From positions 901,788 to 965,787 of the forward strand of contig NZ_LMGU01000001.1 in NCBI RefSeq assembly GCF_001427525.1: a stretch of 64,000 bases of DNA, in the 5' to 3' direction. A model generated the notes under the pieces. It was not told the origin of the DNA. It worked only from the letters and a program-made list of their open reading frames with translations, and ran no database searches. The translations under genes and the position numbers were made by a program. Position 1 is the stretch's first letter. Every line of letters begins with the position of its first letter. Shown here piece after piece: positions 3,959 to 50,900 of this stretch. Origin of the DNA: Microbacterium sp. Root61. GTDB lineage: Bacteria > Actinomycetota > Actinomycetes > Actinomycetales > Microbacteriaceae.

Positions 3959-3961
3959 TCG

Positions 3962-4035
3962 TTGCGGGGACAGGATTTGAACCTGCGACCTCTGGGTTAT
4001 GAGCCCAGCGAGCTACCGAGCTGCTCCACCCCGCG
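3962..4035 (-). tRNA. tRNA-fMet (CAT), initiator, copy 1
   Basis: A 74-base cloverleaf with anticodon CAT. Two initiator hallmarks are visible: the unpaired C1-A72 at the acceptor end (5' CGCGGGG against CCCCGCA plus discriminator A) and the three G-C pairs of the anticodon stem (GGG/CCC). No CCA is encoded. It is identical in sequence to the copy at 4303-4376. Confidence 0.95.
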
Positions 4036-4300: not shown

Positions 4301-4302
4301 CG

Positions 4303-4376
4303 TTGCGGGGACAGGATTTGAACCTGCGACCTCTGGGTTATGAGCCCAGCGAGCTACCGAGCTGCTCCACCCCGCG
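4303..4376 (-). tRNA. tRNA-fMet (CAT), initiator, copy 2
   Basis: Identical in all 74 bases to copy 1 at 3962-4035, with the same C1-A72 mismatch, GGG/CCC anticodon stem and no encoded CCA. Each copy has its own -10 and terminator, so the two are probably separate transcription units. Confidence 0.95.
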
Positions 4377-49381: not shown

Positions 49382-50497
49382 TCAGACGCGCGGAAGCTCG
49401 GCCAGTCGTGCGGCGGCCGCGGCAATGCGCTCGTCGGTCGCGGTGAGCGAGAGACGGATGTGCTGCGGGTAGTGCTCGCCGTAGAAATGACCGGGTCCGG
49501 CGAGGATTCCGACGCTCGCGAGACGGTCGATGCTCTCCCACGCGTCACGGCCCTCGGTCGCCCACAGGTACAGACCGGCTTCACTGTGATCGATGCGGAA
49601 GCCTGCGGCCTCCACCGCCGGCTTGAGCACGGCGCGCCTGGCCCGGTAGAGCTCCTTCTGCGCCGCGACGTGCGCGTCGTCACCGAGCGCGACGATCATC
49701 GCAGACTGCACCGGCGCGGGGGGCATCAGCCCCAGGTGCTTGCGCGCGGTCAGCAGACGCTCCACGAGTGCCGGATCGCCGGCGAGGAACGCCGCACGGT
49801 AGCCGGCCAGGTTCGACTGCTTGCTCAGCGAGTACACCGACAGGATGCCGCGCACGTCGCCGGCGGTCACCCGCGGGTCCAGCACGCTGGGCACGGGCTC
49901 GTCCGCCCACACGCCGTCCCAGCCGAGCTCGGCGTAGCACTCGTCCGAGACGAGAATCGCCCCGAGTTCGCGCGCGCGGGCGACCGCGGCGGCCAAGGCT
50001 GCAGCATCCAGCACCCTGCCGTCAGGGTTCCCGGGAGAGTTCAGCCAGATCAGCGCGGTGCCCGCCGGCCATTCGGCGGGGTCATCGCTCGCGAACGGCG
50101 TCGCACCGACGAGACGGGCGCCCACTTCGTACGTGGGGTACGCGGCACGCGGGTGCACGACGATGCCTCCCGCGCCGAGATCGAGCAGCAGCGGCAGCAG
50201 GGCGACGAGCTCCTTGGAGCCGATCGTCGGAAGCACATGCGCGGGGGTCAGGTCGGGCACACCGCGACGTCGCGCGTACCAGTCGACGATGGCTTCCCGG
50301 AGCGCGGGCGTGCCCACGGTCTGCGGGTAGGCGTGCGCATCGGTCGCTGCCGCGAGGGCGTCGGCCACGACGCGCGGCGTCGGATCGACGGGCGAGCCGA
50401 TGGACAGATCGACGATGCCGTCGGGGTGGGAGCGCGCCCGGGCCGCGTACGGCGCGACGGCATCCCACGGGTAATCGGCGAGGTCGGAGACACCCAT
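49382..50497 (-). CDS. dapC: succinyldiaminopimelate transaminase
   Basis: 371-residue PLP aminotransferase for the succinylase pathway between dapD and dapE. Marks: VDLSIGSPVDPTP, LNSPGNPDGRVL, SDECYAELGW and the PLP Lys in SVYSLSKQSNLAGYR. The ferredoxin-dapC order is the same as fdxC-Rv1178 in M. tuberculosis. ATG 50497 follows the ferredoxin stop by 10 bases, so the two are probably one transcript. Confidence 0.9.
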   Translation of the reverse strand: MGVSDLADYPWDAVAPYAARARSHPDGIVDLSIGSPVDPTPRVVADALAAATDAHAYPQTVGTPALREAIVDWYARRRGVPDLTPAHVLPTIGSKELVALLPLLLDLGAGGIVVHPRAAYPTYEVGARLVGATPFASDDPAEWPAGTALIWLNSPGNPDGRVLDAAALAAAVARARELGAILVSDECYAELGWDGVWADEPVPSVLDPRVTAGDVRGILSVYSLSKQSNLAGYRAAFLAGDPALVERLLTARKHLGLMPPAPVQSAMIVALGDDAHVAAQKELYRARRAVLKPAVEAAGFRIDHSEAGLYLWATEGRDAWESIDRLASVGILAGPGHFYGEHYPQHIRLSLTATDERIAAAAARLAELPRV

Positions 50498-50507
50498 CCC
50501 GCGGCGC

Positions 50508-50900
50508 CTACGGTGCCTGCGGCGGGAGCGCCGAGATGATCGGGTGGTCCTTGTGGATCACGCCGACCTTGGCGGCTCCGCCCGGGGATCCCACGTCGTC
50601 GAAGAACTCGACGTTGGCCTTGTAGTAGTCCGAGCCGACCTTGGCGGCTCCGCCCGGGGATCCCACGTCGTCGAAGAACTCGACGTTGGCCTTGTAGTAG
50701 TCCGACCACTCTTCAGGCAGGTCGTCCTCGTAATAGATCGCCTCGACCGGGCAGACCGGCTCACACGCACCGCAGTCGACGCATTCGTCCGGGTGGATGT
50801 AGAGCGACCGGTCGCCTTCATAGATGCAGTCGACCGGACACTCGTCGATGCAGGCACGGTCTTTCACATCCACGCACGGAAGCGCGATCACATACGTCAC
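50508..50900 (-). CDS. fdxA: 7Fe-type ferredoxin with an exact 24-residue internal duplication
   Basis: 130-residue FdxA/FdxC-type ferredoxin. Cluster ligands: CIDECPVDCIYEG (first three Cys) and ECVDCGACEPVCPVEA (4Fe-4S and shared Cys). Normal members have about 106 residues; here a 24-residue block, beginning SDYYKANVEFF and ending in the GGAAKVG part, occurs twice in tandem after the clusters (about 66-113). The clusters are intact, so electron transfer should be kept. Start GTG 50900, leaderless by TAGACT. It is followed by dapC. Confidence 0.92.
   Translation of the reverse strand: MTYVIALPCVDVKDRACIDECPVDCIYEGDRSLYIHPDECVDCGACEPVCPVEAIYYEDDLPEEWSDYYKANVEFFDDVGSPGGAAKVGSDYYKANVEFFDDVGSPGGAAKVGVIHKDHPIISALPPQAP
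50562..50633. repeat. tandem 72-bp repeat in fdxA, copy 1
   Basis: 72 bases from GCCGACCTTGG to TAGTAGTCCGA, identical to and directly abutting the copy at 50634-50705. The length is 24 codons, so the frame is preserved. Confidence 0.9.
50634..50705. repeat. tandem 72-bp repeat in fdxA, copy 2
   Basis: Second identical copy, adjacent to the first. No base difference is visible between the two, which points to a recent event or a sequence-assembly artefact. Confidence 0.9.

Follow-up and report, generated by a model that had tools for sequence, protein, structure and literature searches.

Among the closest described systems are the actinobacterial FdxA/FdxC proteins, represented by the M. tuberculosis ferredoxins (PMC6208970); the gene studied here resembles them in matching the family profile NF045480 and in having dapC adjoining. 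The gene lies in a window, by which we mean the whole 64,000-nucleotide stretch of Microbacterium sp. Root61 DNA that was analysed, and scores 206.7 bits against the NF045480 (FdxA_Actino) profile (cut-off 125). The next gene downstream is dapC (Table 1), an adjacency that marks the ferredoxin gene as the dapC-linked locus; a scan for promoters and terminators around the ferredoxin gene found none. The solved structure closest to the product by sequence is 2v2k_A, titled 'FERREDOXIN', which we take to be M. smegmatis FdxA. The translation contains Cys9, Cys17, Cys21, Cys40, Cys43, Cys46 and Cys50, presumably the [3Fe-4S] and [4Fe-4S] ligands as in Azotobacter FdI, together with an eighth cysteine, Cys25. 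The initial annotation had described an exact, abutting, in-frame 72-bp duplication within this gene, and sequence comparison confirms both the base-for-base identity of the two copies and the reading frame: the unit is in frame with the minus-strand ORF, whose translation shows SDYYKANVEFFDDVGSPGGAAKVG twice. The Fe-S ligands are left intact by the duplication. With 130 residues as assembled, the product departs from the length of about 106 residues for FdxA_Actino, and the excess equals the 72-bp unit, which is judged here to be false. We regard it as close to certain that the duplication is an assembly artefact and not a real feature; the product of the true gene is most likely a standard 7Fe ferredoxin of 106 residues.

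Chance does not account for the duplication, as judged from its Tandem Repeats Finder result (period 72, 2.0 copies, 100% match and a score of 288, which tops the window's 15 rows, the runner-up having 76) and from its being the sole exact abutting duplication with a unit longer than 36 bp in 1.6 Mb of its own genome searched at lags of 20–1499 bp. Four further exact abutting duplications in the same sample have units of 27–36 bp. Presence in the assembly is nevertheless not presence in the organism. The whole genome has exactly three copies of the 72-bp unit, two in the window gene and one in a second ferredoxin gene. Elsewhere in the window, the minus strand carries two tRNA-Met (CAT) genes (3961–4035 and 4302–4376) inside an exact 85-bp direct repeat with a lag of 341 bp, which is ordinary.

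Table 1. Features of the window ferredoxin locus, the second ferredoxin locus (L002) and the single-N positions of the same assembly (G000; contigs C1 and C2).
Feature	Position	Strand	Remarks
7Fe ferredoxin gene (FdxA_Actino/FdxC-type), dapC-linked, 130 residues as assembled	50508..50900	-	NF045480
dapC (succinyldiaminopimelate transaminase), next downstream gene	49382..50497	-	TIGR03539 DapC_actino, 560 bits, cut-off 355.65
72-bp unit, first copy in gene order	50634..50705	-	Identical to 50562-50633
72-bp unit, second copy in gene order	50562..50633	-	Identical to 50634-50705
5' arm, 99-bp exact match to second ferredoxin gene (L002 1669-1767)	50634..50732	-	Ends at junction
3' arm, 99-bp exact match to second ferredoxin gene (L002 1696-1794)	50535..50633	-	Starts at junction
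Second ferredoxin gene and N scar	L002 1501-1970 = G000:C1:2168746-2169215		
Exact 99-bp copies on either side of an N	C1:777787		
N between 99-bp copies, 1 mismatch	C1:2983712		
N between exact 95-bp copies	C2:29776		
Single-N positions outside the ferredoxin locus	C1:776322, 777787, 2329185, 2329404, 2983712; C2:29776, 83767, 273009		

The second ferredoxin gene of this genome (4.02 Mb in two contigs) is located at G000:C1:2168746. Its product is 100% identical to residues 1–89 of the window ferredoxin and scores 192.6 bits against NF045480, above the cut-off of 125. For the product encoded upstream the top match is the NADPH-ferredoxin reductase FprA (1lqt, 279.8 bits), and the gene downstream is thioredoxin-reductase-like, with 95.3 bits, under the family cut-off of 343.45. 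This locus carries an assembly scar: 3' of the ferredoxin stop codon there is a single N (C1:2169115), after which the sequence re-enters the ferredoxin gene, leaving an unmerged overlap of 173 bp with one mismatch across the N. A third ferredoxin relative, at C1:2302615, is distant (48% identity).

The exact stretch common to the two ferredoxin genes measures 126 bp with the unit counted once, and the 72-bp unit is exactly centred in it (27 + 72 + 27). Two 99-bp arms of unaltered window sequence, each matching the second gene, meet at the duplication junction between 50633 and 50634; arithmetically, two 99-bp runs into a 126-bp repeat overlap by 2 × 99 − 126 = 72 bp. This geometry would follow if the assembler had failed to resolve the 126-bp repeat common to the two genes, so that contigs from either side extended into it by 99 bp. 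Assembly on a de Bruijn graph of k = 99 would give such a run-in, as would greedy extension of 100-bp reads. At the window locus two contig ends would then have been abutted with their 72-bp overlap unmerged, producing a seamless exact tandem duplication, and the corresponding join at the partner locus would be the one seen there, with its N and unmerged second piece. This second piece opens at base 28 of the 126-bp repeat, its start being one base off that of the window unit and of the expected 99-bp arm. Some details count against an artefact: the piece has 98 repeat bases rather than 99, unless the N stands for the absent base; no N or other mark is present at the window junction; and an artefact explains a unit length that is a multiple of three only by chance (1 in 3).

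Scars were surveyed in four 400-kb blocks (1.6 Mb of the 4.02 Mb), which contain 12 single-base N positions. Only four of these, including that beside the second ferredoxin gene, show a clean suffix/prefix overlap (95–173 bp; Table 1), and two of the four overlaps are not 99 bp, which again counts against an artefact. At two further positions, C1:776322 (131 bp) and C2:273009 (102 bp), a long exact repeat adjoins or spans the N and gives no clean overlap, and the remaining six have neither an overlap nor a long repeat, three of them (C2:666, 669 and 675) lying inside a local tandem array. Exact repeats of at least 99 bp cover 1372 bases of the sampled 1.6 Mb, a count that misses repeats with a partner outside the sample. 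Nine of their ten intervals fall within 60 bases of an N; these nine are not independent, since several owe their existence to the scars. The remaining interval is the window duplication. The genes at C1:777787, C1:2983712 and C2:29776, where the duplicated flanks are 95–99 bp long, may also carry false duplications.

The repeat was sought in related ferredoxin loci, which may include some species twice. None of the 130 loci read in a recount repeats the 72-bp segment (131 were fetched from other genomes), nor does L032, which was outside the recount and was read separately. Microbacterium accounts for the best named match and for 35 of the 80 loci listed. The family norm of about 106 residues given in the initial annotation holds well, with 127 of the 130 loci encoding 105–110 residues; the exceptions are L156 (genome G012; 89 residues, a deletion), L047 (116 residues, a short insert) and L094 (133 residues, a C-terminal extension). 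Among the 120 protein matches listed of 7998, a repeated motif is present in one (P0001), in which two complete ferredoxins are fused head to tail. A short insert, EISTGSI..., precedes GSPGG in both the Microbacterium sp. BR1 ferredoxin (L047 2001–2336) and the FprA-linked gene of G012 (L157 1571–1891), and is perhaps a lineage feature.

The two ferredoxin genes of G012 (L156 1501–1770 and L157) present a possible mirror case. They carry different in-frame deletions that start at the same codon position, right after CGACEP, and the final cluster cysteine is missing from both products. The exact tract common to the two genes is 99 bp long and stops at the start of the deletion. The probable cause of these deletions is an assembly error in the opposite direction.

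A genuine and very recent in-frame 72-bp chromosomal duplication, which would yield a ferredoxin of 130 residues whose C-terminal segment, beyond the cluster ligands, is present twice, agrees with the exact copies, the open frame, the junction without an N and the intact Fe-S ligands. Such an event would have had to fall by chance at the exact centre of the stretch shared with the paralogue, with arms of 99 bp on both sides, a length that recurs as the overlap at two further assembly scars; moreover, the junction is without microhomology and the related loci (0/130) lack the repeat. We consider a genuine duplication of this kind very improbable.

The other explanation that needs to be weighed involves exchange between the two genes, for which we compared the 11 genomes with both a dapC-linked and an FprA-linked ferredoxin gene (among L001–L035 and L156–L177). 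Within a genome, the longest exact tract common to both genes ranges from 35 to 249 bp. It reaches at least 99 bp in seven of the 11 genomes, a count that includes the window genome and G012, both with 99 bp as assembled; without these two suspect genomes the count is five of nine. Between genomes, no tract of at least 99 bp was found in 349 pairs, the longest being 83 bp, and when the genes were paired at random among the genomes the observed mean tract was reached in none of 10 000 trials. The two genes are 87.6–98.5% identical over the first 267 bp in all pairs except that of G012, which carries deletions (65.5%), and the 100-bp flanks before and after the genes are 21–42% identical without gaps in the 11 pairs. 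In a DNA tree of 49 genes with G012 omitted, the two genes are sister tips in six of ten pairs; the non-sister pairs are those of G005, G006, G014 and G028. The pair of the window genome is sister with a support of 100/100, within an otherwise dapC-linked group. Shuffling the labels on the tree gave values as low for dapC in 120 of 500 shuffles and for fpr in 293 of 500, i.e. without clustering beyond chance, which is consistent with mixing by conversion and is not proof of it. Single-contig genomes G032 and G034 have tracts of 249 and 168 bp, respectively; since each is one contig, the long shared tracts are not solely an effect of draft assembly.

These results suggest recurrent gene conversion as the best reading of the within-genome tracts, which might alternatively come from repeated replacement by new copies. 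It is likely that the dapC-linked and FprA-linked 7Fe ferredoxin genes have been homogenised repeatedly by within-genome conversion in the genus, so that electron carriers of unlinked operons evolve in concert; the literature searched contains nothing linking ferredoxin in Microbacterium to gene conversion. The DNA common to both ferredoxin genes also sets the assembly trap.

A genuine exchange between the two genes, by gene conversion or unequal recombination, could have left a tandem repeat at the converted tract, in keeping with the probable conversion between these loci in the genus and with the position of the unit inside the tract common to both genes. Such an event would predict neither the two arms of exactly 99 bp, nor the N and the unmerged sequence at the partner gene, nor similar scars elsewhere, and we hold it to be more remote still than a simple chromosomal duplication. 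Microhomology-driven slippage is rejected on the absence of any homologous base on either side of the junction; a CCGACC pair near both ends of the unit has a spacing of 67 bp and would yield a 67-bp, out-of-frame duplication; and an ancient origin, for which the initial annotation had proposed a comparison with related strains, is rejected on the undiverged copies and the lack of the repeat in every related locus read.

The preferred explanation is thus an unmerged join, on the strength of the exact 99/99-bp geometry, the other 99-bp scars and the N scar at the partner gene. The junction lies in sequence repeated elsewhere, the arms are of fixed length, other joins in the assembly are unmerged and the related loci read lack the repeat. 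Between the very recent event and the assembly error that the initial annotation had offered, it is the error that is strongly supported; the altered partner docking and repeat instability that it had also raised are left without support, because the duplication itself is judged to be false.

Recognizing the artefact averts a false claim of a recently duplicated ferredoxin. A short in-frame false duplication without an N looks like a normal gene, and similar cases can be approached with a simple test, which asks whether a second gene contains the same sequence and whether both arms have the same fixed length, seen again at other scars of the assembly.

Compared with the actinobacterial FdxA/FdxC proteins in the accessible part of PMC6208970, the window gene differs solely by the doubled 24-residue segment, judged here to be false. 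Among the precedents for such errors, the portion of PMC5771137 available reports a correlation between the fragmentation of bacterial draft genomes and repeats at least as long as the reads, and the misassembly of some repeats. For vertebrates, false gene gains arise from false duplications, and these stem mainly from divergent haplotypes, according to the sections of PMC9516828 at hand. Relative to the misassemblies described in these parts of the two papers, the false copy in the window is confined to a single gene, measures just 72 bp and does not interrupt the frame, and its size is given by 2 × 99 minus the length of the repeat.
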